From NCBI GenBank assembly GCA_028554795.2, contig CM068842.1, positions 26,384,590-26,448,589 of the forward strand: DNA of 64,000 bases. Direction: 5' to 3'. Position 1 is the stretch's first letter; the number at the start of each line of letters is the position of its first letter. This document shows positions 14,925 through 43,305 of the stretch, piece after piece. The notes under the pieces are model-generated. The model did no database searches, was not told where the DNA came from, and saw nothing but the letters and a program-made list of their open reading frames with translations. The stretch is from Sinohyriopsis cumingii (Eukaryota; Mollusca; Bivalvia; Unionida; Unionidae). A program made the translations under genes and the position numbers.

Positions 14925-14938
14925 GCCCTTTTCAGGGC
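14925..14938 (+). terminator. Histone-type mRNA 3' stem-loop SL1
   Basis: GCCCTTTTCAGGGC: five-base-pair stem with TTTC loop, followed by CACTCCA and, about 16 bases after the stem, TAGAAAAGATAG, which fits a histone downstream element. Confidence 0.7.
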
Positions 14939-15039
14939 CACTCCACTGGCTAGAAAAGATAGCTATTCTTTTGCCATATTTGTGTCTTTGTTTTGTGTTT
15001 GTGTTATGCTTTCTTTCCCCCAGCTGTCCCTGATTGGCC

Positions 15040-15265
15040 CGATTGAGGTCAGCCACTTGCAACATTGTTGCCAATGTCCAGTACCGTGACGTCATTCCAC
15101 CTGTTCCATTCCTGTTGTCCCTATGCAATTCCCCACCTATGTTAAATTTCCCATTATGTCCTTTCAGTACAGTCCTATGTGTCCCTATAAAGTTTTTCCC
15201 CATAGTACATCCACTATTTTTAACATTAAGTCCTATGTGTCCCTATAGTGCCCCATATTACTACT
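15040..15265 (+). repeat. Terminal iteron segment of fragment D
   Basis: Repeats of TATGTTAAATTTCCCAT and TCCTATGTGTCCCTATA, ending in CCCCATATTACTACT. TGACGTCA lies at 15087-15094. Same design as the termini at 6157 and 43629. Confidence 0.55.
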
Positions 15266-16003
15266 ATCAGTCTATTCACATCTCCATGCACAATTTCGAT
15301 TGGCATGAAAGAAAAGTCACGTAATTAGTCATTATTTGTATTAAAATGTATTGAAACATTCGAGGAGAATTGAAGATCCATACATCTTGTTTTCTATGAA
15401 ATCGATGATTATTCCTTCTCTAAGAAACTTGTTGAAGTGTTTGTCAAACATAATGCATGTTACATTTTGTACATGTTATCAAATAAATCATATCCGTTGA
15501 TACGCAGTCAGGGTTATAACGACATCTTTTGTACTGGAAATACTAAAATTAGTTCTTTCTCAAATAGTTGTACGTGGAGAGCAACAATCTTCTGTTACAT
15601 GTAGATGATAAAAATATATTTTTTTTCTGTTCGTTTAGTTCTAATAAAAAAATCTTGCAAATTCTTGGTTCTTCTATAAGCAAGAATTGTTTTGCTTTTG
15701 TAAAGTGTTTTCACGCTGTTTTTATTTGATTAATTAAGGAGACGCCAATATTTATTAATTACAAGGCCTTTAGTAGGTAATGAAGATTATATTGTATTAT
15801 GAAAGGAATTGTATTTTTCTCTATCGTACATTTTGTTGTGTTTAAAGCCTCATGTTGAGTAAGACTAAGGGCTTTGTTTAATGCAGAATCAAGTATATAT
15901 GTAGAATAATTTCCATTTTGGAAATCTTTTTAATTCATTCAAATAATTTTATAATTGACAATCGTCTGAAATAATCCGTAGGTATCTTTTGGCCTGGCTA
16001 TAT
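15266..16003. other. Host DNA between two Polinton ends, no gene seen
   Basis: AT-rich, no open frame or known repeat. It is the pre-insertion host sequence left of element A. Confidence 0.5.
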
Positions 16004-16009
16004 TCTGTA
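16004..16009 (+). repeat. Left 6-bp target-site duplication of element A
   Basis: TCTGTA, repeated at 43630-43635 directly outside the right terminus. Six bases is the known Polinton value. Confidence 0.9.
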
Positions 16010-16020
16010 AGTAGTGAATA

Positions 16021-16235
16021 GGGTCACTTTAGCCTCAATGGGAATTAGCATTACAGAGACCCCTGGGTCGTTTTAGCCTCAATGGAAATTTAACATGGAG
16101 AAAAATCGTGGGTCGTTTTAGCCTCAAGGGGAATTTAACATGGAGAAATAGTCTTGGGTCGTTTTAGCCTCAAGGGGAATTTAACATGGGGAATAGAGTT
16201 TGGACTTGTCTAGGGACAAGGGGAATTGAACATGG
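16021..16235 (+). repeat. Five tandem iterons, left terminus
   Basis: Five units of about 42-46 bp, each with GGGTC...TAGCCTCAA-GGG-AATTTAACATGG or a variant. They lie immediately inside the terminus. The inverse set is at 43405-43618. Confidence 0.85.
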
Positions 16236-16334
16236 GATTTTTTTTTTTAAATTTTTTTAAATTTAAATTTAACTTTAAATTTAAAAAAAGGGGTAGGCAA
16301 TTGAAAAGTCATTCTCTTTTCGAGAAATATGGGT

Positions 16335-16350
16335 GGCCCTGAAAAGGGCC
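16335..16350 (-). terminator. Histone-type mRNA 3' stem-loop SL2
   Basis: On the minus strand GGCCCTTTTCAGGGCC, then ACCCA, then after about seven bases CTCGAAAAGAGAATG. The stem of six pairs, TTTC loop, ACCCA flank and purine-rich downstream element all match the metazoan histone consensus. It lies about 20 bases after the small gene's stop. Confidence 0.88.
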
Positions 16351-16369
16351 TTTGGTTTTTTTTCTTCTT

Positions 16370-16696
16370 CTAGCTCCTTAACTTCTTCCACCATCCTCTT
16401 ATTTTTTCCATCATTCCTTTCTTCTTCTTCTTCTTTTCTGTTTCCGGCATCCAGTGCGGGTGACCCATGGCTCGGAACTTCTCTTGGATTTTCATCCAAT
16501 TATTGTTAAGCCGCTCAAACTCTTCCTTTTTCTTTTTGTTTTCCACATCTTTTCTTTCTTCCCTCCATTTCTCTTTAATCTTCTCTACTTCTTCCTCCAT
16601 TACTTTTCTCATCAGATCTTCCCCTTTCTTCACCTTTTCCAATCCCCATTTACATTTCTCCACTCTGTCCAGTACAATATTTTTTCTAGGAAGCAC
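16370..16696 (-). CDS. Basic coiled-coil protein in the left inverted repeat (ORF b)
   Basis: 108 residues, rich in E and K. Core segment GEDLMRKVMEEEVEKIKEKW, then EFERLNNNWMKIQEKFRAM, GHPHWMPETEKKK and a basic tail GWWKKLRS. A diverged homologue is at 35861-36085 with the same landmarks (ERLNQSWIKVQEKFRALGHP). It overlaps ORF a of the same repeat in another frame. The same pair of neighbouring frames occurs in block B, so the arrangement is old. No known domain. A histone-type stem-loop follows. Confidence 0.6.
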   Translation of the reverse strand: MLPRKNIVLDRVEKCKWGLEKVKKGEDLMRKVMEEEVEKIKEKWREERKDVENKKKKEEFERLNNNWMKIQEKFRAMGHPHWMPETEKKKKKKGMMEKIRGWWKKLRS

Positions 16697-16968
16697 CGGA
16701 CATTGATGACATGATCCAGTGCTTCCTTCAAACTTCCCACTCTGAAGTAAGGTGGGTTAATGAAGCCTCTTGACTTATTGACTTCTTCTTCAATCATCCC
16801 TGCTATGATATCTCTTGCTGTCTTTAGGCCTTGAACTTGACTCGTTACAAAGTCTTTCATATCTCCATGCCTCCATTCCTCTTCTATTCTTCCTAAAACA
16901 TATTCTACATCCATTATCCAGAAATAGATGTCTCTCAATAGATTAAATAGAACTGATACTTGAGTCAT
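16630..16968 (-). CDS. Helical protein in the left inverted repeat (ORF a)
   Basis: 112 residues starting MTQVSVLFNLLRDIYFWIM; then KTARDIIAGMIEEEVNKSRG, FINPPYFRVGSLKEALDHVI and NVRCFLEKI. The homologue in block B (36146-36484) keeps LINPAYVKIGMLKEALDNV and VRCFLEGM. The start is set by the ATG about 50 bases after a TATAAG box in the repeated promoter block. Because it lies in the inverted repeat the element carries two near-identical copies. Function unknown; possibly a structural or regulatory helical protein. Confidence 0.6.
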   Translation of the reverse strand: MTQVSVLFNLLRDIYFWIMDVEYVLGRIEEEWRHGDMKDFVTSQVQGLKTARDIIAGMIEEEVNKSRGFINPPYFRVGSLKEALDHVINVRCFLEKILYWTEWRNVNGDWKR

Positions 16969-17020
16969 TTTGTCTCAGTTATTCCTTAGAATGGTTCCAA
17001 CATCAAACTTTGTGGGTTCT

Positions 17021-17126
17021 TATAGTGAAAGCGCGGACGTGATGGAAAACATCCCCCTAAAAACATAAAATTGATCTTACCTAGATCATGACCAAATAAC
17101 GCGCGGACGTGAAGGAAAACATCCCC
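17021..17126 (-). promoter_or_regulatory. Repeated promoter block P1
   Basis: Contains GCGCGGACGTGATGGAAAAC followed by ATCCCCCTA, the palindrome TGATCTTACCTAGATCA, and a second GCGCGGACGTGAAGG copy at 17101. On the minus strand a TATAAG box at its edge points at ORF a of the left inverted repeat. Confidence 0.6.
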
Positions 17127-17346
17127 TACTTTCTCATTTCATATAATAAAACCAAAACTATACTCTCCACATACGCTAAGAAACAATAAAGAAACTACTA
17201 TTCACACAAACTTACGTCAACTGTTACAAACACAAACACACAAACACATACACTCGCACTATCAATAAAGAGTTAGTGTTTATATTCACACTACTCTACC
17301 TACACACATTGGCAAATGGATGGTTATCTTTTCTAGAGTATTGGGT

Positions 17347-17362
17347 AGCCCTGAAAAGGGCT
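17347..17362 (-). terminator. Histone-type mRNA 3' stem-loop SL3
   Basis: Minus strand AGCCCTTTTCAGGGCT, ACCCA, then CTAGAAAAGAT after seven more bases. About 35 bases after the stop of the gene at 17397. Confidence 0.88.
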
Positions 17363-17396
17363 GTTTTTTTTTGTTTGGAACTTCATGGACACCTGG

Positions 17397-17774
17397 TTAA
17401 TGGTGGCACCTTCCAGGCCTGGCGCCACATACACATCTTGTCCCCCAGTTACTTTTTACCTTTTGGGGGGAGAGAGCAGAGGCAGGATATGTGGCTTCAG
17501 AATCCCAATTTTCGCTCTCTGGGATTCTGAAATTTCTTCTTCTTCTCTCCTTTTCCTCCTCCTCCTCTTCTTTGTTTATTCTCTCCTCCTCTTTGTATAT
17601 TCTTTCCTCCTCTTCTTTATATCTTCTCTCCTCCTCTTCTTTGTTTCTTCTTTCCTCCTCCTCTCTCATCCTTCCTTCTTCCACAATGGCTTCCGCGGCC
17701 AGTTCGTTCAACAGGCGCCTGGCATATTCCAGATGCACATGAAGTTCCAACAGTTTCGCCAGTCTCGTGTTCAT
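17397..17774 (-). CDS. E/R-rich coiled-coil protein with CxC-rich tail, paralogue 1
   Basis: 125 residues from ATG at 17774. N-terminal helix NTRLAKLLELHVHLEYARR, then a long E/R/K coiled coil (EEERRNKEEEERRYKEEEER) and a conserved tail: PESENWDSEATYPASALSPQ and RCVCGARPGRCHH. Paralogues at 36866-37240 and 37738-38046 keep both ends while the coil varies in length. TATAAATT at about 17827 in block P2 gives a start region about 50 bases before the ATG. The cysteine/histidine tail could bind metal; that is inference. Function unknown. Confidence 0.65.
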   Translation of the reverse strand: MNTRLAKLLELHVHLEYARRLLNELAAEAIVEEGRMREEEERRNKEEEERRYKEEEERIYKEEERINKEEEEEEKERRRRNFRIPESENWDSEATYPASALSPQKVKSNWGTRCVCGARPGRCHH

Positions 17775-17828
17775 TTTTGGTGTTGATCAATCAACAAGGG
17801 TAGCTAGACTGCCGAGCGAGTTTCAATT

Positions 17829-17930
17829 TATAGTGAAAGCGCGGACGTGATGGAAAACATCCCCCTAAAAACATAAAATTGATCTTACCTAGATCATGAC
17901 CAAAGAAACAACGCGCGGACCTAAAAGAAA
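17829..17930 (-). promoter_or_regulatory. Repeated promoter block P2
   Basis: On the plus strand TATAGTGAAAGCGCGGACGT, then GATGGAAAACATCCCCC, the TGATCT/AGATCA palindrome, and a second GCGCGGACCTAAAAG. Minus-strand TATAAATT points to the gene ending at 17397. Near-identical blocks occur at 17021, 36490, 37300 and 38110. Confidence 0.65.
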
Positions 17931-18213
17931 CACTCACTCACTTTTTTATGCTACCCATTCCTATTCTAAAATTTTTTTCATTAATCACTTCAATAGACTA
18001 TCCACATACTCAAAGCAATCCAATCTAACCCCAAATATACACCTCAAACACCAAAAAAGACATCATTTTGATCTACTATCCATACCAACTTACGTGAGCA
18101 CTTACAAACACATACCCTCACATTTTTTAAAAAAGAGTTAGTGTTTATATTCACACTACTCTACCTACACACATTGGCAAATGGATGGTTATTTCTTTTC
18201 TAGAGTATTGGGT

Positions 18214-18229
18214 AGCCCTGAAAAGGGCT
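18214..18229 (-). terminator. Histone-type mRNA 3' stem-loop SL4
   Basis: Minus strand AGCCCTTTTCAGGGCT, ACCCA, then CTAGAAAAGAAAT. It follows the stop of the gene at 18260 by about 31 bases. Confidence 0.88.
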
Positions 18230-18259
18230 GTTTTTTTGTTTGCTATGGCAATCTTTTTT

Positions 18260-18622
18260 TTAGTTTCTAAGAATGCGATGTCCTCTGAGGATAGACTTTC
18301 TGGCGATAGGTCTGCTTCTTCGGAAAGAGAAGAAGAACTCTTTGGTGTCGATACGACAATCGACAAAGCCTCTGTCAGCTTCAGGTTGCTGCTGCTGTTG
18401 TTGTTGTTGTTGTTGCTGCTGCTGCTGTCTCTGAAGTCTGTACTTCTCTGTCCATTCTTCTTTCTCCCTGTTCACTTCTTCTCTGAAGAGTTCTTCTATC
18501 AGGTCTTCAGTAACTTTTAGCATTCTCACATTCTCTATTTCTTCTGGCTTCGGTATCAGACTGTGTCTGACCCTATGCAAATTCACGTAGGCTTCGTTGA
18601 GCTTAGCTAGTTTGGAGCACAT
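18260..18622 (-). CDS. Small helical protein with glutamine run
   Basis: 120 residues from ATG at 18622. N-terminal helix CSKLAKLNEAYVNLHRVRHS resembles that of the gene at 17397. EDLIEELFREEVNREKEEW resembles EDLMRKVMEEEVEKIKEKW of the inverted-repeat gene, so it links the two kinds of terminal gene into one family. A run of 14 glutamines follows, then a basic end. The promoter copy P3 lies upstream and a histone-type stem-loop downstream. Function unknown. Confidence 0.6.
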   Translation of the reverse strand: MCSKLAKLNEAYVNLHRVRHSLIPKPEEIENVRMLKVTEDLIEELFREEVNREKEEWTEKYRLQRQQQQQQQQQQQQQQPEADRGFVDCRIDTKEFFFSFRRSRPIARKSILRGHRILRN

Positions 18623-18679
18623 CTTCGTAGGAGGATGAGTCGACAATGGATGGTTAGACTGGAAACAACCCCCGGTTCT

Positions 18680-18717
18680 TAAAGTCAAAGCGCGGACGTG
18701 AAGGAAAACATCCCCCA
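18680..18717 (-). promoter_or_regulatory. Repeated promoter block P3 (short form)
   Basis: AAAGTCAAAGCGCGGACGTG followed by AAGGAAAACATCCCCC. The palindrome and second half found in the other blocks are missing. Confidence 0.55.
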
Positions 18718-18851: not shown

Positions 18852-18967
18852 CAAAAATCTCTTAACACTAACCAACAACAACTCTAACATATTTTTTAAC
18901 AATAATCCAACATTATAACATCAAACATTTTTCTTCAAATAACAAAATTTTTTTCTCAATTCACACT

Positions 18968-19516
18968 CTACTTTAAACAGGGCTGACAACGTTGTGATTT
19001 CCACTGTTGGAAATCATTAGGCCATTGATGGACACTACGTTTCCTAGCTTGAGACAAAAGATAAGCATAATGGTCACAAAACCATCGATCTACTTTCACA
19101 TCATTTCTAGAAGAAGAACGAGGATCAAAATGAGTCACTAAATGTTCTAAGGAATAGCCCAGGCTGCGATGATGCAGAAAATACACACAGTACTGTCCAC
19201 ACACCAAGGAATCTGTGCCTTGTAATTTCACATTATTGAATCGGGTGGTTTGAGCATTTCTTCTCATAAAGTCGATGATATCGTCTTCCAAAGGGGGCAA
19301 TCCGTACGAATCGAAATATTCCACACATCCTTCTTGAGGAAGGTAGACGGCTACCCAGTGGGTTCCTGGGAGATGACTGTCGTCCGTGTTGATCACGTAA
19401 GCTTGATGGTCTTTAGGTTTGCGATGAGGGAGTTCATCTTTAGCACAGACGACAGGATTCCAAGAAGCCGTATACGAACTGTGGTTCAAAAGGTAATAAA
19501 GTTCCCAGGTATCCAT
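18968..19516 (-). CDS. Adenain-like cysteine protease (Polinton PRO)
   Basis: 182 residues, looks whole. Adenovirus-type (C5/C48-like) protease that would cut capsid precursors during virion maturation. Visible catalytic set: His53 in PGTHWVAVYL, acidic Asp69 in EYFDSYG, Gln108 and Cys110 in CGQYCVYFL; spacing agrees with adenain. It starts with MDTWELYYLL at an ATG and overlaps the end of the upstream gene by about 30 bases. It is the leftmost of the virion-type block, next to the capsid genes as in many Polintons. Confidence 0.9.
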   Translation of the reverse strand: MDTWELYYLLNHSSYTASWNPVVCAKDELPHRKPKDHQAYVINTDDSHLPGTHWVAVYLPQEGCVEYFDSYGLPPLEDDIIDFMRRNAQTTRFNNVKLQGTDSLVCGQYCVYFLHHRSLGYSLEHLVTHFDPRSSSRNDVKVDRWFCDHYAYLLSQARKRSVHQWPNDFQQWKSQRCQPCLK

Positions 19517-20053: not shown

Positions 20054-21388
20054 CTAATAATCTAGAATGACTTCTCTCAAACTGTTGATTTCTATGGTAT
20101 TATCAAATTCGGCATACAGGATGACGTTCACTGTTGCTGGCAGTTCTTTTGCAAACTGAAGTTCCACACGAATCTGCCCAGATTTTATAGGGTGGAAATG
20201 TCCCTCGTCGCTGCCTTGGTCTGGAGTGAAATCGAAAGCCCACAAAGCATAGCCTCCTGCGTAATCTTCGTACGTAATGCCGTGACTGGTGTTGGTTCCT
20301 AACTGGCCGGTGGCTTCGTACAGGGACAAGTACGATCTCAAGTAATTCATCTTATTCTCGTCGTCACTAAAGACAGGTTAGAAAGGTCGGGTACACAAGG
20401 TCTTGCCATCGCGACTGACTTCGACTTTCTTCACATAAAAGTGTTTAAACTCAAAAGGATTTTCAGCGAAAGCTCCGTTGAAGGCTGAATTCAGGACCAT
20501 ACCAAGGATTAAACGTTTGGGTAACTGTCCTTGGAATAGATGATCTTCGATCATGGAATGCTGTCCAGCAGGAATGGTGAACGTTTTCACTTCCACGCGT
20601 CGTATGGGATACTTGGCGGTCGTTCTGCTCAACGTTTGACTGATGTCATTTCCCACTTTAGGTAACATTTCCACGCGTCGTACGTAGAGTTTGGCCTCCT
20701 CGATTTTACTTTTGTAATCGTCACTATCAGCTATTAAATGGAAAGCGGTACTGCTCCGATTCAGTCTCAAGCGGACATTGACTCCGTTCAGCAAATATTT
20801 CTCTTGCAACCACATGTCCAAATGCAAACGATCCATCAGTTCTAAACTCTTTCCATCTTTGATTTTGTTTCTTCGTTCTATAAATCCCTCATTGACGGTT
20901 ATGTTTGATTTGGGGTCAGGTTCAAGATTTTTTTAATCGAATTCGCCCGCTTCGTCAGGTTCCCATAGCACGCAGGCATTGAGATGGGTGTCCTTGGCGT
21001 CTATTCCGTACGTCAAGAGATTTTCCAGGTAGGCACGGTAAGGGTATGTATCCATGCTGCTGCTGACTAGTTTGTTATTCAAGTACAAGTCCACTCCACT
21101 GAACAAGGAATGCATGAAATTGTTGACGGGAGCTACTTTCTCTTTACCGTCTATACTAGTTCCAGTCTTATCTAGAACTTTGACTTTCAAGTACAAGTAA
21201 CTGCTATTCAGATCGATGTAATCTTCGGGCTGTCCTTCGATTTCAAACTCGATGGGAGCGGAATCGGCCAGTGAGGAGACGGGATGAAATTCCACCCATT
21301 GGGATTCTTGCATCGTCATCATGGTGGGGGGCATGCCAAACAGATCCAGTTCCGTCTTGGAACAAGCGCAAGACTCTCGGTGCATCAT
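20054..21388 (-). pseudogene. Major capsid protein fossil (double jelly roll)
   Basis: Position and sequence fit the Polinton major capsid protein. Near the start: ESQWVEFHPVSSLADSAPIE, then YIDLNSSYLYLKVKVLD, FMHSLFSGVDLYLNNKLVS and YPYRAYLENLLTYG, which are hallmark strands of this family. Further on come RLRLNRSSTAFHLI, LYVRRVEMLP and the C-terminal GGYALWAFDFTPDQ with VNVILYAEFDNTIEI. It would build the icosahedral shell. It sits between the protease side and the minor capsid genes. Broken, about two breaks. Confidence 0.88.
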
Positions 21389-23206: not shown

Positions 23207-24044
23207 TCACTTCTTTTTATAGTCGATGACTTGCGAAGCGTCGATCCAAGAATCAAAACTGGGTGGATATCCTTTCCAACGTACTTTGACTTCTTTGACA
23301 CGTCGTTTGCCCACTTTACGGGTTCTGCGTTCGAGAATGCTTTCGATGTCGTACACGTCGTCTTCTTTTTTGGTGACACGTTGTAACTCGGGCAAATTAA
23401 ACGTTCCTTTGAGCACTTCTCCGTTCATGTCTTCCAATTTATAGACGGCAGGATGACGGCCATACACTCGTCCAGTGACACGAAACAATTCGGTCGTCCA
23501 GTTAGGTAAGTAACCTTTGTCGAAAGTGCGTTTGGTTTTGCCAATGCGCACCCAATCTCCTACGACCAACTCTCCACTTTTCTTGGGGACAGCCCTCGTC
23601 GGGGACGTACCAAACAGGCGCTCAAACACCAACACTTCGTTGTCGGGAGTCACGTCTTGCGGGGCACGTCCGATGCTTCGATGGTAAGATTGGTTGTACG
23701 CTTGCACCAGGTGAGGTAAGATGTCGATGTACTTCAGAGTGTGGTGATGCGTAAAATATTTCCACATGCGTTCTTTCAAAGTGCGTTGAAAACGTTCCAC
23801 GATGCTGGCTTTGGTTTCGGGATTCTCGGTGGTAAAAAAATGAATGTCACGTTTCTTTAATTCTTTTTGGAAAGCTTGGTTCAGAAATTCGGTGCCTTTG
23901 TCCGTTTGCCATCGAAGAGGGTGACGACCGCTTTGTTTCAGCACTTGTTGCAGGGCTCGCACTAACTCGCTGCTCGATTTGGAAGTCAAGGGCACGTGCA
24001 GGATGCGAGGGATTGTAGTAAATGCTGGCTAAGACTTTTTCCAT
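23207..24044 (-). pseudogene. Retroviral-type integrase with chromodomain, fossil
   Basis: Polinton integrase that would insert the element and make the 6-bp duplication. It opens with MEKVLASIYYNPSHPA. Visible core segments are PLRWQTDKGTEFLNQAF and NPETKASIVERFQRTLKERM, which carry catalytic acidic residues of the RNase H fold. These are followed by HHTLKYIDILPHLVQAYNQS, an SH3-like part (VGDWVRIGK...FDKGYLPNWTTELFRV) and a C-terminal chromodomain (YDIESILERR...VKVRWKGYPPSFDSWI). The chromodomain may once have steered insertion to certain chromatin. Broken, about one or two breaks. Confidence 0.9.
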
Positions 24045-27775: not shown

Positions 27776-28168
27776 TCAAGTAGGGAATTTAAATGTTGCA
27801 TACTGTAACCGAAACGTCAGACTTCGTTTAGAAGCTTCCTCTTCCGCTAAGTAGATTCCACGTAAAATATGTCTGTAATCCTTTAACTTGTCTTCCTCAA
27901 TGTGTTGTACTAGGTGAATCTCGAAGTAACCAAAATAATCAACACGTGGATCATCGGGGGCCTGGAAGTATTGAACAAGGTCTGACCACTGAAACAATTT
28001 CTGACGAATCAGTTCTCTTATACCATTCAGGTACCAGTGCTTAAAAATCTGGTGACGTAACGGATGCAATTGTTCTTTACGTTTGACTTGTATTTTGACC
28101 AGCTCTCGGTAAATGCGTTCTCTCAACTCCACAGGCAAAGCACGAATGTTCTCTAGCAAAGTATCCAT
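27776..28168 (-). CDS. F-box-like small protein, tandem copy 1
   Basis: 130 residues, looks whole. The N-terminus NIRALPVELRERIYRELVKI has the LPxELxxxI pattern of F-box-like adaptor proteins, though it is short and the match is by pattern only. The first 47 residues are almost identical to the neighbouring gene at 28181-28636 while the rest has diverged. The two therefore arose by tandem duplication and then changed in their presumed target-binding part. If the F-box reading is right it would link a target to an SCF ubiquitin ligase. Confidence 0.5.
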   Translation of the reverse strand: MDTLLENIRALPVELRERIYRELVKIQVKRKEQLHPLRHQIFKHWYLNGIRELIRQKLFQWSDLVQYFQAPDDPRVDYFGYFEIHLVQHIEEDKLKDYRHILRGIYLAEEEASKRSLTFRLQYATFKFPT

Positions 28169-28180: not shown

Positions 28181-28636
28181 CTAAATCCTCTTTGGTCTGA
28201 CACAAGAAATGTACTCTTTGCACAAACATGGTTTTACTTCAGTGTCGAATTTAAATCGTTGAGTCACTAATCTACACATTACAATTCGTTCAGAAGTTTC
28301 CTCTTTCACCAAGTTGACATTGCGTGAAAGATGTTGGTAATTCGTTAACTCTTCTTCTGGAATTCGATGCAGTACGTTTACAATGTAGTAGATAGAATCG
28401 TCAATACCAAACCATTCCTTTTTATAACCAGGAGGTCGTTGATCAATGTCTGTCCAATGGAACAGTTTCAACTCAATCAGTCCTTGTATAGCATTCAGGT
28501 ACCAGTGGTTCAAACACCGGTGACGTAACGGATGCAATTGTTCTTTACGTTTCACTTGTATTTTGACCAGCTCTCGGTAAATGCGTTCTCTCAACTCCAC
28601 AGGCAATGCACGAATGTTCTCTTGTAAAGTATCCAT
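28181..28636 (-). CDS. F-box-like small protein, tandem copy 2
   Basis: 151 residues, looks whole. Same start as its neighbour (NIRALPVELRERIYRELVKI, HPLRH), then a diverged body (LKLFHWTDIDQRPPGYKKEW) and a cysteine-containing tail (CLCKEYISCVRP). About 12 bases separate it from copy 1. No other domain is visible. Confidence 0.5.
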   Translation of the reverse strand: MDTLQENIRALPVELRERIYRELVKIQVKRKEQLHPLRHRCLNHWYLNAIQGLIELKLFHWTDIDQRPPGYKKEWFGIDDSIYYIVNVLHRIPEEELTNYQHLSRNVNLVKEETSERIVMCRLVTQRFKFDTEVKPCLCKEYISCVRPKRI

Positions 28637-29358: not shown

Positions 29359-29366
29359 TTTTTATA
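29359..29366 (-). promoter_or_regulatory. TATA box for BIR protein 1
   Basis: Minus-strand TATAAAAAG about 60 bases before the ATG; it overlaps the end of the BIR protein 2 gene. Confidence 0.5.
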
Positions 29367-29820
29367 TTTGTCGCAATGCAGTCTCCAGCTTGTACATCTT
29401 TCTTTTTTTACGTTTTTTATGTCTTGTTTCGGAAGGTACCGTCTCTAAGATACCGTCAACATTGTACCGTAGTGTGATGGGTGGAAAGGCCATAGAAAGG
29501 TAAGGGCAATGCGGACACCATCGAGTATGTTCCAGAATAGCTGAATCTTTATAGATACATAGATCCATTCGTAACTTCAGTCCGCAAGCGAAACACTGTA
29601 CCTCGTATCCCAATCCTGACTCAGGTGCCAAGTAGACAAATCTTGTTCTAGCTAAAACATGCGAAGAAGGTAATCCTTCCCTATCCGTAGGCCATTTCTG
29701 AAACGTGTCCAATCGACGGGCACAATCACAATAGTCAGGTAAGAAGACTGGAAAATGGTAGGGTTTGAACTTGGAGTTCTCATCGGGTTTCTCACTCGAT
29801 TCTTGCTGTGGCGAAGTCAT
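29362..29820 (-). CDS. BIR-domain (inhibitor-of-apoptosis-type) protein 2
   Basis: 152 residues, looks whole. One BIR domain at about 18-115: FPVFLPDYCDCARRLDTFQK, WPTDREGLPSSHVLARTRFV, then the zinc ligands in VQCFACGLKL and EHTRWCPHCPYL. A basic tail (RHKKRKKRKMYK) follows. It is diverged from BIR protein 1 next to it, so the pair is either an old duplication or two captures. It may once have delayed apoptosis of the infected cell. TATAAAA at 29856-29862 lies about 37 bases upstream. Confidence 0.87.
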   Translation of the reverse strand: MTSPQQESSEKPDENSKFKPYHFPVFLPDYCDCARRLDTFQKWPTDREGLPSSHVLARTRFVYLAPESGLGYEVQCFACGLKLRMDLCIYKDSAILEHTRWCPHCPYLSMAFPPITLRYNVDGILETVPSETRHKKRKKRKMYKLETALRQI

Positions 29821-32800: not shown

Positions 32801-33882
32801 CCTGAGCATTTCAATCCACAATACTTGTGTTGCTCTCGATTATTATAACCATAATCACATTTCTCACAATAATAAATATATCCCAGGAATCCGGTGATAG
32901 TGGTAATGGCATCGAAATGGTCATCGTGATGATAAACATGAATGTGTTTTCCGTCCTTAAAATCTTGGCCTCGAAACAACAGAGGCCCGCGCACTTCTTG
33001 AGGGTGCACTTTCAAGGTGTAGCGTGGAGCTAGGACATCTTGCAATTTTTGCATTTCAGGAATGCCACAGGGTGTGTCTTTGGACAGGCCAGCTTGTTGC
33101 AACAGGAGTTCTGCTTCGTTTCGTTGTTTGGCTCGGTCCGATTGTCGAATAGTTTTCCAGGCTCTTTTCCATTCTGCCGTGTCGTTCTTGATGGCATAGG
33201 TTCGTCCCACCACGATGGCTCGAGCTAAACACATCTGGTCCTGAGGGTTGTTAATTCGGACGAGACTCTTTTTGGTGCTGCGAAGGTCGTCCACCAATAA
33301 CATCTTTTTGCGTCCAGTCCCTTGAGGAGGAGAGACGTGGGTCATGTCCAGTGTGGCTTTACCATCGGTGATGTCAAACTGGTCATTAGATTGTTGTACG
33401 TGTTGAATCTTGTCCATGACTTTGGAAGCGGTCAATTCTGCAGGGGTGCTAAACTCGATCCAAACAGGGGATTTCAAACCGTCGTGTTGTATGGAAAGTC
33501 TCAAGCGATCGTCTTCTTTGGGTTGACATTGTCGCTTGAGTGCAGTGAGCAAAGAATCCCACACCCCAGTGATAAACACTTCTGCTTTCTCTAACGGCAC
33601 TTCAGCCTTGAAATCTTTAAACTTCACCGTGTATTTGTAAGCCGTGGTTCTAAATTTTCTAGAGGAGCGCTTTTCCGTCTCTCGAATGGAATAGTATTTT
33701 TCAGGGTTGACTAAGGGTAGCGAACTTGGTTTAGAGGGTTCAAATTCTGGTTCACTCATGTCCTCTTCAAAATCACTGGCATGAATTTGTGCCAAGATTT
33801 CAGCCGTGGTACGAGGCGATAGATCACGTTTCTGCCTCTTACTTTCTTCTTCTTTCTTCTCGAATGAATAGGATCGTTTCAT
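29844..33882 (-). pseudogene. Protein-primed DNA polymerase B fossil, copy 2 (element A)
   Basis: It starts at ATG 33882 (MKRSYSFEKKEEESKRQKRD). Then come the KFRTTAYKYTVKF region, a zinc-binding region with many C/H pairs (CEKCDYG, KKKCHICHHIVDLEHQC), exonuclease motifs FFDFDC, HNFSGYDGQ and YCRSDVDIL, and polymerase motifs DVCSLYP, KVMLNCLWGKM and YFDTDSCIYI. This is the replicase that would prime DNA synthesis from a protein. TATAAA lies at 33931-33936. It is divergent from the zinc-knuckle gene at 34017, so the two share a short promoter region. Broken, about two breaks. Confidence 0.92.
29856..29862 (-). promoter_or_regulatory. TATA box for BIR protein 2
   Basis: Minus-strand TATAAAA about 37 bases before the ATG; it lies close to the polymerase gene's 3' end. 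Confidence 0.5.
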
Positions 33883-34016: not shown

Positions 34017-34547
34017 ATGGAAGAGACTAACCAAATCGAACGTTTCGTCAGAGCTTTGCGAGGGGTCATTAGAAAATTCTCTTCAGACCAGCCCACAGAC
34101 TACTCTCCTTCCTTTCGAGATAAAAGTCAAGATACTTGCTATATCTGTCAGAATAAAGGGCATTGGTCTTCAGAGTGTCCAGACCGTCAGAAAAGAACAA
34201 AAAGAAGGGCTGAAAAAGACAAAAGTCAAGATACCTGTTATTATTGTAAAGAAAAAGGACATTGGTCTCCAGATTGCCCAAAAAGGAAACAAGAGGAATC
34301 AGAAGAAAAGAGGAATTCTTCAGAAGAAAAGAGGGATTCTTCGGAAGAAGAGAGGGATTTTTTAGAGGAAGAAAGCAGACAGGTGAAGAAAAAGAAACAG
34401 GAGAAGAAAAGAAGAAGGGAAGAAAGTGAGGAGGAAGAAGAGGAAAAGAGTGTGACGGTGAAGAAATTTAAAAAAACAGAGAGACTAAACAAGGAGACAG
34501 AAGAAGTCAATGAACTTTTAATTAAAGCGTTCTGTTGTGAATTGTGA
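34017..34547 (+). CDS. Double CCHC zinc-knuckle protein with acidic/basic tail
   Basis: 176 residues from ATG at 34017. The N-terminal helix (IERFVRALRGVIRKF) is followed by two CCHC knuckles, CYICQNKGHWSSEC and CYYCKEKGHWSPDC, separated by a basic linker. Then comes a long charged region of repeated SEEKR/SEEE units and KKKKQEKKRRRE. CCHC knuckles bind single-stranded nucleic acid. The two knuckles and the DKSQDTC that precedes each are internal duplicates. It is the only virion-block gene on the plus strand; it looks whole. No stem-loop or clear AATAAA follows. Confidence 0.75.
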   Translation: MEETNQIERFVRALRGVIRKFSSDQPTDYSPSFRDKSQDTCYICQNKGHWSSECPDRQKRTKRRAEKDKSQDTCYYCKEKGHWSPDCPKRKQEESEEKRNSSEEKRDSSEEERDFLEEESRQVKKKKQEKKRRREESEEEEEEKSVTVKKFKKTERLNKETEEVNELLIKAFCCEL

Positions 34548-34743
34548 ATTGGATTGTAACAATGGATAAAAGGATAAATTAATGATATAAGGTAAGTGTC
34601 TTTGAGTTATGATTTTAAAATAAGAACGTACACTCACGCACTCATACACAGAGACGTACTATAGGGGGTAAAATGGGCTGTTTAATATTTTTTTTTGAGT
34701 TATTGGCAAATTGAAATTGTATATCTTTTCGAGAAATGTGGGT

Positions 34744-34759
34744 GGCCCTGAAAAGGGCC
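34744..34759 (-). terminator. Histone-type mRNA 3' stem-loop SL5
   Basis: Minus strand GGCCCTTTTCAGGGCC, ACCCA, then CTCGAAAAGATAT. It follows the stop of the Q-rich gene by about 28 bases. Confidence 0.88.
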
Positions 34760-34786
34760 TTTTTTCTTTATGGTGTAGGGGTGAGT

Positions 34787-35281
34787 TTAAGCAATCAACT
34801 TTAACTGCCTTAAGCCTTTGCCACGACCAAGGCCTACTTCTGGACTGCGTAATGTTGATAATGATGATGATTGGGTTGAAATCACTAAGGGTGGTACGGT
34901 AGGCTTAGTCACAGGGTTGACGTGTTTAGCTCGGGAAGGTCGTATTCTCTTCGGTCGTAATAAAGAATTCTGATACATTTGTTTCAGACTTCTTAACTCC
35001 GCTAAAATGTCCAACAGTACCGTGACCGTTTGATTTTCACCCTCTTGTTTCTTTGCTGCTACTTCTTCTTGCTGTTGTTGCTGTTGTTTTTTTCTTACCT
35101 CTTCTTCTTGCTGCTGCTGTAGAAGAAAAGCTTGTTCCGCTTCCTTTTGTCGTTGTATAAATTTCTCCAATTCTTCTTTCTGTCTCTGTCTAAAATTCTC
35201 CACTTGCGGTAATGAAGAAGGTAACGAAGGTTCCGGAACAAATTCTTGCGAGGAGAGTAAATCCACAAAATCCCAATTCAC
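34787..35281 (-). CDS. Q/E-rich coiled-coil protein
   Basis: About 164 residues. NFRQRQKEELEKFIQRQKEA leads into runs of glutamine and glutamate (LLQQQQEEEVRKKQQQQQQE), then a helical part TVTVLLDILAELRSLKQMYQ and a basic end (LLRPKRIRPSRAKH...GLGRGKGLRQLKLIA). No ATG opens this exact frame at its far end, so the start is uncertain; a TTACTTTCAG just upstream could be a splice acceptor. It is the only gene away from a terminus with a histone-type stem-loop after it, and resembles the polyQ gene at 18260 in composition. Confidence 0.5.
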   Translation of the reverse strand: MNWDFVDLLSSQEFVPEPSLPSSLPQVENFRQRQKEELEKFIQRQKEAEQAFLLQQQQEEEVRKKQQQQQQEEVAAKKQEGENQTVTVLLDILAELRSLKQMYQNSLLRPKRIRPSRAKHVNPVTKPTVPPLVISTQSSSLSTLRSPEVGLGRGKGLRQLKLIA

Positions 35282-35426
35282 CTCTTCTGAAAGTAAGTCC
35301 GGGTTCCCTTAGGCAGTCTCCCCTGCTGGTGCACCCCAATGGATCGTTTTCTGAATTTCCGTCATGTTGAATCACTATCGCATAGATTGACTGTACACAA
35401 GCACTAGCGAATCTATATAGACCACG

Positions 35427-35728: not shown

Positions 35729-35808
35729 TTGGGATTTTTTTTTTTTTTAAATTTTTTTAAAAAAGGGGTAGGCAATTGAAAGGCTATCTCTTTTCGAGAA
35801 ATATGGCT

Positions 35809-35824
35809 GGCCCTGAAAAGGGCC
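35809..35824 (-). terminator. Histone-type mRNA 3' stem-loop SL6
   Basis: Minus strand GGCCCTTTTCAGGGCC followed by AGCCA (variant of ACCCA), then CTCGAAAAGAGATAG. Confidence 0.82.
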
Positions 35825-35860
35825 TTTGGGTTTCTTCTTCTTCTTCTTCTTCTTCTTCTT

Positions 35861-36085
35861 CTAACACTTCCACTTCTTCAACCATCTTCTCACTTTTGTC
35901 ACTATTCCTGTCTTCTTTTTCTCCTTTTCTGGCATCCAGTCAGGATGGCCTAGAGCTCTAAACTTTTCCTGAACTTTTATCCAACTCTGATTCAGTCTCT
36001 CAAACTCTGCCTGTTTCTTTTTGTTTTCCTCATCCTTTCTTTCTTTACTCCATGTCTCCTTTATCTTCTTTACTTCTTCCACCAT
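35861..36085 (-). CDS. Basic coiled-coil protein, block B homologue of ORF b
   Basis: 74 residues: MVEEVKKIKETWSKERKDEE, EFERLNQSWIKVQEKFRALG, HPDWMPEKEKKK, then RRWLKKWKC. It matches ORF b of the element A inverted repeat along its whole length with many substitutions. Both copies keep the W and HP-WMPE positions, suggesting past protein-level constraint. A stem-loop follows. Confidence 0.55.
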   Translation of the reverse strand: MVEEVKKIKETWSKERKDEENKKKQAEFERLNQSWIKVQEKFRALGHPDWMPEKEKKKTGIVTKVRRWLKKWKC

Positions 36086-36145: not shown

Positions 36146-36484
36146 TCAATCTAGCCATTTCACCATTCCTTCCAAAAAGCACCTTACTTCTACAACATTA
36201 TCCAAGGCCTCTTTTAACATTCCAATTTTGACATATGCAGGATTAATTAACCCTCTCAACTTCTTCACTTCTTCTTCTATTAACTCCTCTATCTTCTCCC
36301 TCGCTACTTTTAGTTTGTTAGCAAGGTCCAGACTGTTTCTTATCCTCCATTCTCTTTCAATTCTTTCCACTACATATTCACTGTCTATCATCCAATAGTA
36401 TGTTTCCTTTAAGTTGTTGAACAGGTCAGATACAGCTACCATTTTCTTTCCGTTATTCCGTAGAATGGTGCGAACGACGAACAC
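36146..36484 (-). CDS. Helical protein, block B homologue of ORF a
   Basis: 112 residues to the first possible start; the true start may be MVAVSDLFNNLKETYYWMID, nearer the position of the element A start. Conserved with ORF a: EEEVKKLRGLINPAYVKIGM, LKEALDNVVEVRCFLEGM. The TATAG/promoter block P4 lies just upstream. Function unknown. Confidence 0.55.
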   Translation of the reverse strand: MFVVRTILRNNGKKMVAVSDLFNNLKETYYWMIDSEYVVERIEREWRIRNSLDLANKLKVAREKIEELIEEEVKKLRGLINPAYVKIGMLKEALDNVVEVRCFLEGMVKWLD

Positions 36485-36489: not shown

Positions 36490-36610
36490 GTTCTTATAGT
36501 GAAAGCGCTGACGTGAAGGAAAACATCCCCCTAAAACATAAAATTGATCTTACCTAGATCATGACCCAACAACGCGCGGACGTGAAGGAAAACATCCCCC
36601 TACTTTCTCA
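36490..36610 (-). promoter_or_regulatory. Repeated promoter block P4
   Basis: GCGCTGACGTGAAGGAAAAC with ATCCCCC, the TGATCT/AGATCA palindrome, then a second GCGCGGACGTGAAGGAAAAC. Same two-part layout as P1. Confidence 0.6.
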
Positions 36611-36820
36611 TTTCATATAATAGAACCCTAACTATACTCTTCACATACGCTAAGAAATCCATAATCTACTATTCACACAAACATACCTGAGCTCTTACAA
36701 ACACAAACACACAAACACATACCCTCACATTTTTTAAAAAAGAGTTAGTGTTTATATTCACACTACTCTACCTACACATATTGGCAAATTAATAGTTATT
36801 TCTTTTCTAGAGTATTGGGT

Positions 36821-36836
36821 AGCCCTGAAAAGGGCT
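36821..36836 (-). terminator. Histone-type mRNA 3' stem-loop SL7
   Basis: Minus strand AGCCCTTTTCAGGGCT, ACCCA, then CTAGAAAAGAAAT. Confidence 0.88.
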
Positions 36837-36865
36837 GGTTTTTTTGGAACTTCATGGACACCTGG

Positions 36866-37240: not shown

Positions 37241-37294
37241 TTTTGGTGTTGATCAATCAACAAGGGTAGTTAGACTGCCGAGCGAGTTTCAATT

Positions 37295-37395
37295 TATAGT
37301 GAAAGCGCGGACGTGATGGAAAACATCCCCCTAAAAACATAAAATTGATCTTACCTAGATCATGACCAAAAAAACAACAACGCGCGGACCTAAAA
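37295..37395 (-). promoter_or_regulatory. Repeated promoter block P5
   Basis: Near copy of P2, with TATAAATT for the gene ending at 36866, GCGCGGACGTGATGGAAAAC, the palindrome and GCGCGGACCTAAAAG. Confidence 0.6.
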
Positions 37396-37693
37396 GAAAC
37401 ACTCACTCACTTTTTTATGCTACCCATCATTATTTTAAAATTTTTTATAAATCACTTCAATAGACTATCCGCATACGCAAAGCAATCCAATCTAACCCCA
37501 AATATACACCTCAAACACCAAAAAAGACATTATTTTAATCTACTATTGACCCAAACTTACGTGAACTGTTACTAACACAAACACACAAACACATACACTC
37601 TCACTATCAATAAAGAGTTAGTGTTTATATTCACACTACTCTACCTACACACATTGGCAAATTAATAGTTATTTCTTTTCTAGAGTATTGGGT

Positions 37694-37709
37694 AGCCCTT
37701 AAAAGGGCT
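37694..37709 (-). terminator. Histone-type mRNA 3' stem-loop SL8
   Basis: Minus strand AGCCCTTTTAAGGGCT: loop TTTA instead of TTTC. ACCCA and CTAGAAAAGAAAT follow. Confidence 0.82.
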
Positions 37710-37737
37710 GTTTTTTTTCAACTCCAGATGCACCTAT

Positions 37738-38046
37738 CTAATGGTTGCACCTTCCAGGCCTGGCGCCACACACACATCTTTGACTCCAGTCTCTTTTTAC
37801 TTTTTGTCTTGAGAGTGCAGAGGCGGGATGATTCGCTTCAGCCCCCCAGTCCTCTGTCTCGGGAATATTGTACGACATCCTCTCTTCTATTTTCTTGTCC
37901 TCTTCTTCCCTCTCTCTTCTCTCCTCCTCTTCCTTTTTAATTCTTGCTTCTTCTACGATAGCCTCCGCTGATAGTTCATTTACTATGCGCCTGGCATATT
38001 CCAGGTGCATCTGGAGTTCTAACAGTTTCACAATTCTGGTGTTCAT
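37738..38046 (-). CDS. E/R-rich coiled-coil protein, paralogue 3
   Basis: 102 residues from ATG at 38046: NTRIVKLLELQMHLEYARRI, VNELSAEAIVEEARIKKEEE, then PETEDWGAEANHPASALSRQ and RCVCGARPGRCNH. It is diverged from paralogues 1 and 2, mainly in the coil, but the tail is kept. It has its own promoter block (P6) and stem-loop (SL8). It looks whole. Function unknown. Confidence 0.62.
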   Translation of the reverse strand: MNTRIVKLLELQMHLEYARRIVNELSAEAIVEEARIKKEEEERREREEEDKKIEERMSYNIPETEDWGAEANHPASALSRQKVKRDWSQRCVCGARPGRCNH

Positions 38047-38104: not shown

Positions 38105-38210
38105 AATTTATAGTGAAAGCGCGGACGTGAAGGAAAACATCCCCCTAAAAACATAAAATTCATCTTACCTAGATCATGACCAAAAAAAAACAAAGCGCCG
38201 ACCTAAAAGA
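38105..38210 (-). promoter_or_regulatory. Repeated promoter block P6
   Basis: TATAGTGAAAGCGCGGACGT, GAAGGAAAACATCCCCC, then the palindrome (one base changed) and GCGCCGACCTAAAAG. Confidence 0.6.
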
Positions 38211-38511
38211 AACACTCACTCACCTTTTATGCTACCCATTCCTATTCTAAAAATTTTTTATAAATATCTTTAATAGACTATCCACATACTCAAATCAATC
38301 TAACCCCAAAATATACTCTCCCACACCTCAAACACCAAAAAAACATCATTTTAATATACTATCCATACTAACGTACGTTATCACTTACAAACACAAACAC
38401 ACAAACACACAAACATTTTTTAAAAAAGAGTTAGTGTTTATATTCACACTACTCTACTTACACACATTGGCAAATGGATGGTTATTTCTTTTCTAGAGTA
38501 TTGGGTAGCCA

Positions 38512-38553
38512 TGGGTCACCCGCACTGGATGCCGGAAACAGAAAAGAAGAATT
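38512..38553 (+). repeat. 42-bp patch of inverted-repeat sequence at a junction
   Basis: ATGGGTCACCCGCACTGGAT and what follows match the plus-strand reading of the inverted-repeat gene region near 43172-43212, with the base found in the left repeat. On its left the histone-type stem-loop is cut after AGCC; on its right the LINE begins. It marks a recombination or repair scar. Confidence 0.75.
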
Positions 38554-41523: not shown

Positions 41524-41540
41524 GAAAGTAAATCAAAGAC

Positions 41541-41763
41541 CAGTTAAAAATATAACAAATCACTGTTTGGGAATTATGACGGCCGGCTCGGTCTCGTGGG
41601 TTCACAGACTGACACAGCCGTTCATAGCCCGAATAATAAAAACCAGTTAAGGACGAATATTACAAAATCACTGTTTGGGAATTATGACGGCCTGCTAGGT
41701 CTCGTAGGTTCACAAACTGACACAGCCGTTCATACCCCGAATAATAAAAACCAATTAAGGCCA
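41541..41763 (+). repeat. Tandem duplication in the LINE 3' untranslated region
   Basis: Two units of about 108 bp, each with ATCACTGTTTGGGAATTATG, ACGGCC, TTCACAGACTGACACAGCCG and AATAATAAAA. Confidence 0.85.
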
Positions 41764-42014
41764 CAAAAAATTAAAATAGGAAAATAGGAATTAATTAAAA
41801 CAGGACTCCATAATAACATACAAACAACCATAAAAACAAGTTTTCATTCCAAACCAATAAGATAGGGAATCAAAATAAATAAGGAATTGATGAAAAAAAA
41901 AAAAAAAAAAAAATACTCCTAACCGTCTCCTTGTCTCTTAAACAACATCTGGCTGAACTTTTAAATCAAGCTTCCACAGCTATTTCTACTAACATACTCA
42001 GCCAAATCCAGGCA

Positions 42015-42236
42015 ATGTTGGCAGACGACACTGAAGAATTTGAAACTTCCACGCTGGCAGCGGCCCTGGAAGTATCATCATCCAGCGGCGATGAAGCTGA
42101 TGAACCTGCACCACCCAAACACAGTGGAAAAAAGGAAGGCTCTGTCTACCGGAATATCGGACTGGGAAAGGCAATTGATGATATCAAAAAAGCGGGCCAC
42201 TTCGTCAATGCCACAAGACCGGGTGTCATAATGTGA
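42015..42236 (+). CDS. Small acidic/serine-rich open frame, unknown
   Basis: 73 residues from ATG at 42015; the frame is open further back to the LINE poly(A), so it may be a cut-off gene end. The upstream open stretch reads LKQHLAELLNQASTAISTNI, helical; then EFETSTLAAALEVSSSSGDE, HSGKKEGSVYRNIGLGKAID and DIKKAGHFVNATRPGVIM. No family recognised. It lies between the LINE tail and repeat R1 and does not match the left part of element A. It could be a fragment of a third element or of the original right part of A. Confidence 0.35.
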   Translation: MLADDTEEFETSTLAAALEVSSSSGDEADEPAPPKHSGKKEGSVYRNIGLGKAIDDIKKAGHFVNATRPGVIM

Positions 42237-42315
42237 CCTCATCGCTGCCGACCAATCGTGGCGGGAGTCACATACTGCTTGGTTTGACACCTGGGGCATT
42301 TCAATCCAACTAAGA

Positions 42316-42566
42316 AACACGAGTGTGTGGTGTGACTATTCCCACTCATGTCTATTAGCCTTTCAGTCAGGTTGTTAAGGACTAGTTAGTCCTACACCTG
42401 AGTGGCTAAATTAAAAAGTACTCTTTGAGTACATAAAAGCCTGGGGGATGAGGCTCCTTTTCCTTCCCCCAGGAGTAATTAAAAATCACGCAGTGCGTGA
42501 ATAAAAAAGTGGTACATGTTCAAAAGAACGAAAACCACTATAATCCAACTAACTAACTAACTAACT
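42316..42566 (+). repeat. Structured dispersed repeat R1, copy 4
   Basis: GTACTC (42418-42423)/GAGTAC (42427-42432); CCTGGGGG (42440-42447)/CCCCCAGG (42466-42473); TCACGC (42486-42491)/GCGTGA (42495-42500); terminal hairpin 42508-42539 with outer stem AGTGGT/ACCACT, internal loop ACAT/GAAA, inner stem GTTC/GAAC and loop AAAA. It ends in (AACT)n directly against the right inverted repeat at 42567, so it inserted into or next to that repeat. Confidence 0.75.
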
Positions 42567-42671
42567 CAATTTTATGTTTTTAGGGGGATGTTTTCCATCA
42601 CGTCCGCGCTTTCACTATAAGAACCCACAAAGTTTGATGTTGGAACCATTCTAAGGAATAACTGAGACAAA

Positions 42672-43010
42672 ATGACTCAAGTATCAGTTCTATTTAATCT
42701 ATTGAGAGACATCTATTTCTGGATAATGGATGTAGAATATGTTTTAGGAAGAATAGAAGAGGAATGGAGGCATGGAGATATGAAAGACTTTGTAACGAAT
42801 CAAGTTCAAGGCCTAAAGACAGCAAGAGATATCATAGCAGGGATGATTGAAGAAGAAGTCAATAAGTCAAGAGGCTTCATTAACCCACCTTACTTCAGAG
42901 TGGGAAGTTTGAAGGAAGCACTGGATCATGTCATCAATGTCCGGTGCTTCCTAGAAAAAATATTGTACTGGACAGAGTGGAGAAATGTAAATGGGGATTG
43001 GAAAAGGTGA
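42672..43010 (+). CDS. Helical protein in the right inverted repeat (ORF a)
   Basis: Second copy of the 112-residue gene of the left repeat, with one visible residue change (NQVQ for SQVQ). The promoter part GTTTTCCATCACGTCCGCGC and a TATAAG box lie upstream at 42588-42622. Here the upstream half of the promoter block is replaced by R1, so this copy may have lost normal control. Confidence 0.6.
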   Translation: MTQVSVLFNLLRDIYFWIMDVEYVLGRIEEEWRHGDMKDFVTNQVQGLKTARDIIAGMIEEEVNKSRGFINPPYFRVGSLKEALDHVINVRCFLEKILYWTEWRNVNGDWKR

Positions 43011-43270
43011 AGAAAGGGGAAGATCTGATGAGAAAAGTAATGGAGGAAGAAGTAGAGAAGATTAAAGAGAAATGGAGGGAAGAAAGAAAAGATGTGGAAA
43101 ACAAAAAGAAAAAGGAAGAGTTTGAGCGGCTTAACAATAATTGGATGAAAATCCAAGAGAAGTTCCGAGCCATGAGTCACCCGCACTGGATGCCGGAAAC
43201 AGAAAAGAAGAAGAAGAAGAAAGGAATGATGGAAAAAATAAGAGGATGGTGGAAGAAGTTAAGGAGCTAG
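42944..43270 (+). CDS. Basic coiled-coil protein in the right inverted repeat (ORF b)
   Basis: Second copy of the left-repeat gene, 108 residues, with one visible change (AMSHP for AMGHP). It overlaps ORF a by 67 bases in another frame and is followed by the stem-loop SL9. Confidence 0.6.
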   Translation: MLPRKNIVLDRVEKCKWGLEKVKKGEDLMRKVMEEEVEKIKEKWREERKDVENKKKKEEFERLNNNWMKIQEKFRAMSHPHWMPETEKKKKKKGMMEKIRGWWKKLRS

Positions 43271-43289
43271 AAGAAGAAAAAAAACCAAA

Positions 43290-43305
43290 GGCCCTTTTCG
43301 GGGCC
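43290..43305 (+). terminator. Histone-type mRNA 3' stem-loop SL9
   Basis: GGCCCTTTTCGGGGCC, with a T-G wobble closing the TTTC loop, then ACCCA and CTCGAAAAGAGAATG. Confidence 0.85.

Follow-up and report, generated by a model that had tools for sequence, protein, structure and literature searches.

Two kinds of described systems are among the closest to the locus presented here. Animal replication-dependent histone genes share with it the 3' stem-loop, its loop, the core of the histone downstream element (HDE), the spacing, the distance from stop codon to stem, and a promoter element (found ahead of H2B and H1 in the same host); 3' ends of this type are generally regarded as almost exclusive to histone genes. 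Polinton/Maverick elements and adintoviruses share with it the terminal inverted repeats (TIRs), a 6-base target duplication, a family B DNA polymerase (PolB), a chromodomain gene and, as candidates, protease-like and ATPase-like genes. The locus is a Polinton lying in 64,000 nucleotides (nt) of Sinohyriopsis cumingii DNA (contig CM068842.1, positions 26,384,590 to 26,448,589; hereafter 'the window'), and it differs from the histone genes in that the small genes at its ends (terminal genes) encode no histones and sit in a mobile virus-like element. These terminal genes ended in a stem-loop and an HDE of the histone kind, spaced as in histone genes, and in the loci read such 3' ends were restricted to terminal genes. 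On the sequence evidence, we give a probability of about 0.8 to the reading that the small genes at both Polinton ends are expressed as replication-dependent histone-type genes. The preliminary description of the window had proposed histone-type 3' ends on one class of Polinton genes, and this reading was supported by a genome-wide excess of such ends, by their likeness to those of the host histone genes, and by a 23-base element shared with the host H2B promoter.

Histone-type stem-loops in the window

Nine stem-loops had been described from the window, and all were present at the expected positions and strands, each matching Rfam family RF00032 (E ≤ 0.12), with four exceeding the curated gathering score of 34 bits. 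Stem-loops with HDE were located on the minus strand at 16310-16355 (40.8 bits), 17322-17367 (29.9 bits), 18189-18234 (31.0 bits), 34720-34764 (41.6 bits), 35784-35829 (35.6 bits), 36796-36841 (29.9 bits) and 37669-37714 (31.1 bits), and on the plus strand at 43285-43330 (38.0 bits). The ninth (14919-14964, plus strand; 22.2 bits, E 0.12, five pairs) belonged to a decayed neighbouring element, and a tenth, truncated stem-loop was represented by its 3' half alone (38489-38515, minus strand). The sequence details described earlier also held: ACCCA followed the stem at seven of the nine sites and CT[CA]GAAAAGA was found at all nine, while the loop was TTTC in eight and TTTA in one.

The terminal genes ahead of these hairpins were, on the minus strand, t112 (16630-16968) and t80 (16370-16612, its stop 19 nt ahead of the stem), t125 (17397-17774), the Q-rich t120 (18260-18622), the Q-rich tQ (34787-35305, a 172-codon open frame), a t112-type gene of 98 amino acids (aa; 36146-36442), a t80-type gene of 74 aa (35861-36085) and a t125-type gene of 102 aa (37738-38046); on the plus strand, the right end carried t112 (42672-43010) and t80 (43028-43270) again. 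The short stop-to-stem distance described for most sites was confirmed at eight (19-36 nt); ahead of the 14925 hairpin (14919-14964) no frame of at least 40 codons ended within 120 nt, and a remnant of a t132-type terminal gene (14539-14766, plus strand; 54% identity over 85 aa) lay upstream of it. The frame ahead of the 36821 hairpin (36796-36841) had no ATG. The suggestion that the element's other genes are marked by AATAAA instead proved weak, with AATAAA or ATTAAA within 400 nt past the stop in 4 of 22 non-terminal open reading frames (ORFs) tested versus 3 of 7 terminal ones. As to the stems, said to change in sequence while keeping their structure, one pair did vary (G-C against A-U), both of its sides being changed in 14 of 49 distinct rows; the covariation rests on that pair and likely reflects one old event.

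The nine sites were not independent, since several are copies made via the TIRs and a 2.2-kb duplication, and they were best counted as about four groups: a TIR type (16310, 43285 and an inner copy, 35784), a t125/t120 type (17322, 18189, 36796 and 37669), and two groups of one, the tQ hairpin (34720) and the decayed neighbour (14919). Between the TIR-type and tQ groups the alignable region was only about 58-60 nt around the hairpin. The 20-base hairpin core, exact in five of the nine window sites, occurred in three contigs of a 257-Gb prokaryote collection, which puts its frequency here in large excess over chance; the three contigs themselves were taken as chance matches. Two exact hairpin patterns gave no match in a viral contig collection, and the single viral contig matching a third pattern was likewise put down to chance, as it had no RF00032 match at E ≤ 1 and its ORFs looked phage-like by eye. 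PolB and t125 queries found no relative in the same viral collection.

Genome-wide survey of stem-loops

The host assembly (2.905 Gb) was searched with RF00032, and 75 of 589,472 first-look candidates were scored, all 75 being above the curated cut-off. Forty of these loci were fetched, 20 with 7 kb and 20 with 851 nt of sequence (the latter including the six lowest scoring), and all 40 were situated behind Polinton terminal genes or their remnants; no tblastn match (E ≤ 1e-3) to H3, H4, H2A or H2B was found in the fetched stretch of any of the 40. With a model built from the nine window sites, the 20 long loci were found to contain 55 hairpins, 31 of which were also detected by Rfam alone at the curated score (20 of those 31 being the ones by which the loci had been selected). 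For 36 of the 55, tblastn placed a terminal gene no more than 600 nt upstream, and the remaining 19 followed ORFs of two further terminal families, assigned by eye (13 of the 77-aa type and 6 of the 132-aa type, some of them shortened or broken). Together, the 40 fetched loci held 75 hairpins (55 + 20), every one of them downstream of a terminal gene or a remnant of one. The 77-aa type, t77, is an arginine-rich terminal gene of the right end, seen in the region of L026:3501 and at 12 more hairpins of loci L014-L030; it had no Pfam match, and tblastn (E ≤ 1e-3) did not find it in the window.

The preliminary description had suggested looking for hits of a histone stem-loop covariance model after the stops of terminal genes, and had named the lack of an excess in related elements as evidence against its reading. 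Because each locus was picked by one hairpin, only non-selecting hairpins were counted for spacing: in the 20 long loci they followed 10 of 10 copies of t125, 9 of 9 of t120 and 10 of 10 of tQ, and in every one of these 29 copies the stem lay 17-43 nt beyond the last codon (the last-codon position being extrapolated, and copies whose match misses the C-terminus left out). With the selecting hairpins included, the counts were 4/4 for t80, 10/10 for t125, 9/9 for t120 and 12/12 for tQ. For non-terminal genes with more than 150 nt downstream, no hairpin was found behind the protease (0/7), the zinc-knuckle (CCHC) gene (0/7) or the N-terminal piece of PolB (0/3, a weak count because the end of this piece is a frame break), that is, 0 of 17. 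In t112 the hairpin was absent within 150 nt (0/5) and present at 272-289 nt, because t80 intervenes. A strict hairpin-plus-HDE pattern had 25,665 matches in the genome and none when reversed, a very large excess. This pattern catches about half of the hairpins (28 of the 55 counted in the long loci and 5 of the window's 9, with no match in the histone unit of the host), and the true number of Polinton hairpins should therefore be higher.

Comparison with the host histone genes

A genome search with PF00125 (150 of 662 candidates scored) placed most of the scored matches in tandem arrays whose repeat unit measures about 8.27 kb. One host histone unit (L083) contained H3, H4, H2B, H2A and H1, each with an RF00032 match of 35.0-39.4 bits, compared with at least 42.6 bits for 69 of the 75 scored genome-wide matches. 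The core histone hairpins of this unit had the form GGCCCT-TTTN-AGGGCC, like those of the Polinton, the host H1 hairpin being GGTCCT..AGGACC. The HDE read CTAGAAAAGA in H3, H4, H2B and H1 and CCCGAAAAGGA in H2A, and both the spacing and the stop-to-stem distance of the host genes (27-38 nt) agreed with those of the Polinton. An AAAAGA HDE was found about 12 nt past the stem for 51 of 55 Polinton hairpins and four of five host histone genes, and a more distal TTGCC stood behind 48 of 55 Polinton hairpins, versus 2.6% of random stretches, and behind H2A alone of the five host genes. These comparisons bear on the idea that the hairpin acts at the DNA level, serving replication or packaging close to the element's ends, with its histone likeness incidental. 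The position of the hairpins within or close to the TIRs would suit such a role, but hairpin orientation follows the gene, the asymmetric flanks and HDE are common to the host histone genes, and copies inside the element are separated from the end by one to a few kb, all of which makes this explanation most improbable.

A further explanation would make the terminal genes highly divergent histones still carrying their original signals, as might be suggested by proteins that are small, partly basic and equipped with histone signals. No Pfam histone match was obtained at E ≤ 1 for t112, t125, t120, t77, t132, tQ, t80 or three paralogues, and the structural model of t112, predicted from a shallow alignment to have three long helices (mean predicted local distance difference test score, pLDDT, of 75.6 for the best model and 49-54 for the other four), had no match in the PDB at E ≤ 0.001; this alternative is already disfavoured and very unlikely. 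As far as their sequences indicate, the terminal genes behave like replication-dependent histone genes in their signals but encode no histone.

A host histone promoter element ahead of terminal genes

Seven hairpin-ending genes or gene pairs of the window were preceded by a block of the form GGGGGATGTTTTCC[AT]TCACGTC[CA]GCGCTTT, followed by a TATA-like box. On the minus strand it was located at 17019-17057 (ahead of the 112 aa gene), 17827-17865 (125 aa gene), 18678-18716 (120 aa gene, with CTTTAAG replacing CTATAAG), 36493-36531 (98 aa gene), 37293-37331 (the frame-broken 125 aa-type gene ending at the 36821 hairpin) and 38107-38145 (102 aa gene), and on the plus strand at 42583-42621 (112 aa gene of the right end). 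One looser match (4 mismatches) fell inside an ORF with a BIR (inhibitor of apoptosis) domain, and the block was absent at the hairpins 34720 and 14919. Its 23-base part, GATGTTTTCCATCACGTCCGCGC, was found exactly in the host H2B promoter and with 1 mismatch in the H1 promoter; a third copy in the histone unit (4 mismatches, minus strand) lay between H2B and H2A, and the best match in 40 order-1 Markov simulations of the same stretch had 7 mismatches. Compared with the histone promoters, the Polinton block adds GGG before the shared element and TTT and the TATA-like box after it. With A or T allowed at one site, GATGTTTTCCATCACGTCCGCGC had 30,227 matches in the genome (some of which are the histone array itself, one per unit), and the reversed pattern had none.

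In the 20 long loci, where up to 9 mismatches in 31 bases were allowed, all 28 blocks found preceded terminal genes (t125, 9; t132, 7; t120, 7; t112, 5) and none was ahead of the protease, PolB or CCHC gene. Among the first 100 promoter matches listed, 45 had a strict hairpin less than 800 nt downstream on the same strand and none on the opposite strand, versus 0.54 per 100 at random places. With a histone hairpin and HDE on one side and a histone promoter element on the other, many terminal genes therefore carry host histone signals at both ends. The first 100 matches listed formed 45 runs, and the number of element ends in the host genome is, as a rough figure drawn from one chromosome end, of the order of ten thousand.

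The block contains ACGTCCGC, which may be HINFP/MIZF-like; a literature search for HINFP with CGTCCGC gave nothing. An E2F site in the block was considered and dropped because its orientation did not fit (judged by eye against the consensus). On the minus strand, GGTCATGATCTAGGTAAGATC was seen upstream of the promoter block with 0 or 1 mismatch, at 17073-17093, 17881-17901, 36546-36566, 37347-37367 and 38161-38181.

Constraint on the terminal genes and their hairpins

Differences between paralogues at codon positions 1, 2 and 3 numbered 26, 24 and 61 for the t112-type pair, 16, 10 and 24 for the t80-type pair, and 17, 16 and 47 for the t125-type pair, and this third-position excess indicates that the terminal genes are real proteins under past constraint. 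For the t112/t80 pair, differences were found at 2 sites of the 38-nt hairpin, compared with 85 among 172 third codon positions (p about 1e-7), and the stretch past the hairpin was 68% identical (81/119). These figures count against a history of fossil hitch-hiking, in which part of a histone gene would have been taken up by an ancestor, its promoter element and 3' end included, and duplication would have spread both without present use; so do the retention of hairpin and HDE between the TIR and tQ groups, where so little else aligns, and the confinement of hairpins to terminal genes at a fixed distance. Such a history would accommodate the window sites being partly copies, the many broken genes among those read, and the lack of extra hairpin constraint among tQ copies, and we regard it as improbable.

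Several observations weigh against histone-type expression of the terminal genes. In the t125 pair the hairpin differed at 1 of 38 positions, but the stretch past it was equally kept (112/118, 95% identical), so that no special constraint on the hairpin is indicated there; among 13 tQ copies, the hairpin had 90.7% identity versus 94.2% for the upstream, mostly coding stretch, a pattern that is as expected of decaying copies and gives no support for hairpin constraint. The tQ and t77 genes of the 20 loci had the hairpin and lacked the promoter block. The bases after the stem were ACCCA in the Polinton versus ACACA, ACAAA, ATACA and ACTTT in the host, and AATAAA or ATTAAA occurred within 200 nt past the stem for 12 of 55 hairpins (as it does for host H4). 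Host searches for U7 (65 of 801,960 candidates scored) and for the SLBP domain gave no match, and the control genomes gave none either. HDE pairing with vertebrate U7 was no better than with shuffled sequences at nine of nine sites; with fly U7 it was better at four of the nine (0-1% of shuffles as good). The processing machinery is implied to exist by the host histone array, which has the same kind of signals. A U7-like stretch in L083 (around 5528-5536, minus strand) was rejected for its weak pairing and lack of a firm 3' hairpin.

Other features of the element and the window

The Polinton is composite (16010-43629, no strand assigned) and bordered on both sides by TCTGTA, its 6-base target duplication (16004-16009 and 43630-43635). 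Its TIRs, each about 1.07 kb, lie at 16010-17074 and 42566-43629 and are 99.4% identical, the left one containing the 112 aa/80 aa gene pair and its hairpin. This copy was broken as well as composite, because a LINE-like (long interspersed nuclear element) insert with RNase H (about 38.6-41.5 kb) and a second Polinton end, beginning near 35.5 kb, lie inside it; broken frames were taken as they stand. PolB (29844-33882, minus strand) was in three open pieces with a broken frame and had no hairpin. Its piece at 29844-31688 matched PF03175 (E 1.5e-24), which we take to denote the protein-primed type. A second, inverted PolB copy in the neighbouring decayed element (548-4584, plus strand) was 94% identical to the copy at 29868-33712, and its 548-3226 portion matched PF03175 at E 6e-21.

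Also without a hairpin were an adenovirus-type protease-like gene (18968-19516, minus strand; a weak match to PF00770, E 0.015, below cut-off) and the CCHC gene (34017-34547, plus strand), which adjoins PolB on the opposite strand and is kept in other copies. In the gene at 23207-23767, a candidate for a retrovirus-type integrase, a chromodomain (PF00385, E 3.6e-8) was the sole part recognised, and a packaging-ATPase-like gene, in pieces, reached 23.8 bits for FtsK against a cut-off of 24. Three pieces at 20054-21388, suspected from the layout to be the double jelly-roll capsid, had no Pfam match, and one of them had no convincing PDB sequence match. Two BIR domain genes (28662-29300 and 29362-29820, minus strand) are also inside the Polinton. 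A tandem pair of related small genes was seen at 27776-28168 and 28181-28636 (minus strand), the first having no Pfam match above cut-off, and a tRNA gene (43949-44020, minus strand) lies about 320 bases past the right end of the element.

Proposed mode of expression and its meaning

In the proposed mechanism, the left-end genes (t120, t125, t112 or t132) start from the block with the H2B/H1 promoter element and TATA-like box, which would be used by the host's G1/S histone transcription factors, and SLBP and the U7 small nuclear ribonucleoprotein would direct cleavage after the stem. The terminal mRNAs would lack poly(A), build up during S phase and be destroyed once replication stops, and the terminal proteins would be made at the very time that nuclear replication factors are available; the capsid and replication genes would use other 3' ends. 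The element thus probably switches its terminal genes on during the cell's DNA copying. A different use of the hairpin may be considered, namely S-phase-independent expression in the germline or early embryo as a stored histone-type mRNA, favouring new germline insertions. The very high copy number shows heavy germline spread, and the excerpt of PMC12803260 deals with control of maternal histone mRNA that does not depend on SLBP; we hold this use to be rather unlikely and, because the same kind of 3' end would be employed, it would stay a variant of histone-type expression.

By position, the terminal proteins can be likened to those of adenovirus E1 and E4. These terminal early genes are small and regulatory and lie at both ends of a linear protein-primed genome; a tie to S phase is proposed for both systems. 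Adenovirus early mRNAs differ from the proposed Polinton mRNAs in being polyadenylated, and no LxCxE motif was present among nine Polinton terminal proteins searched.

Among the open-access papers listed (titles and starts of abstracts) for Polintons, Mavericks or adintoviruses together with histone terms or polyadenylation, and for the histone stem-loop together with SLBP and viral mRNA, viral genomes or transposition, none described such an element as carrying 3' ends or promoter elements of the histone type; in the excerpt of PMC11071296, 'histone' refers to a viral protein with remote histone likeness and not to a 3' end. The predicted transcripts would escape poly(A)-selected RNA sequencing, which could explain the absence of such reports. 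It seems fairly likely that one Polinton lineage, whose element ends number some ten thousand in this animal's genome, took on the histone promoter element and 3' end together for its terminal genes and would produce S-phase mRNAs that lack poly(A). Its histone-type 3' ends, of which there are more than 25,000, would greatly exceed those of the host in number and possibly compete for SLBP and U7.

Here, histone-type 3' ends single out one class of genes in an abundant virus-like element, and many of these genes have the host histone promoter element at their opposite end. Should the terminal genes be expressed as predicted, a virus-like element would be reading the host's DNA-replication clock through histone control. 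It could place a load on the host SLBP/U7 system, and it would allow the promoter and 3' signals that are sufficient for histone-type regulation to be tested in a natural setting.

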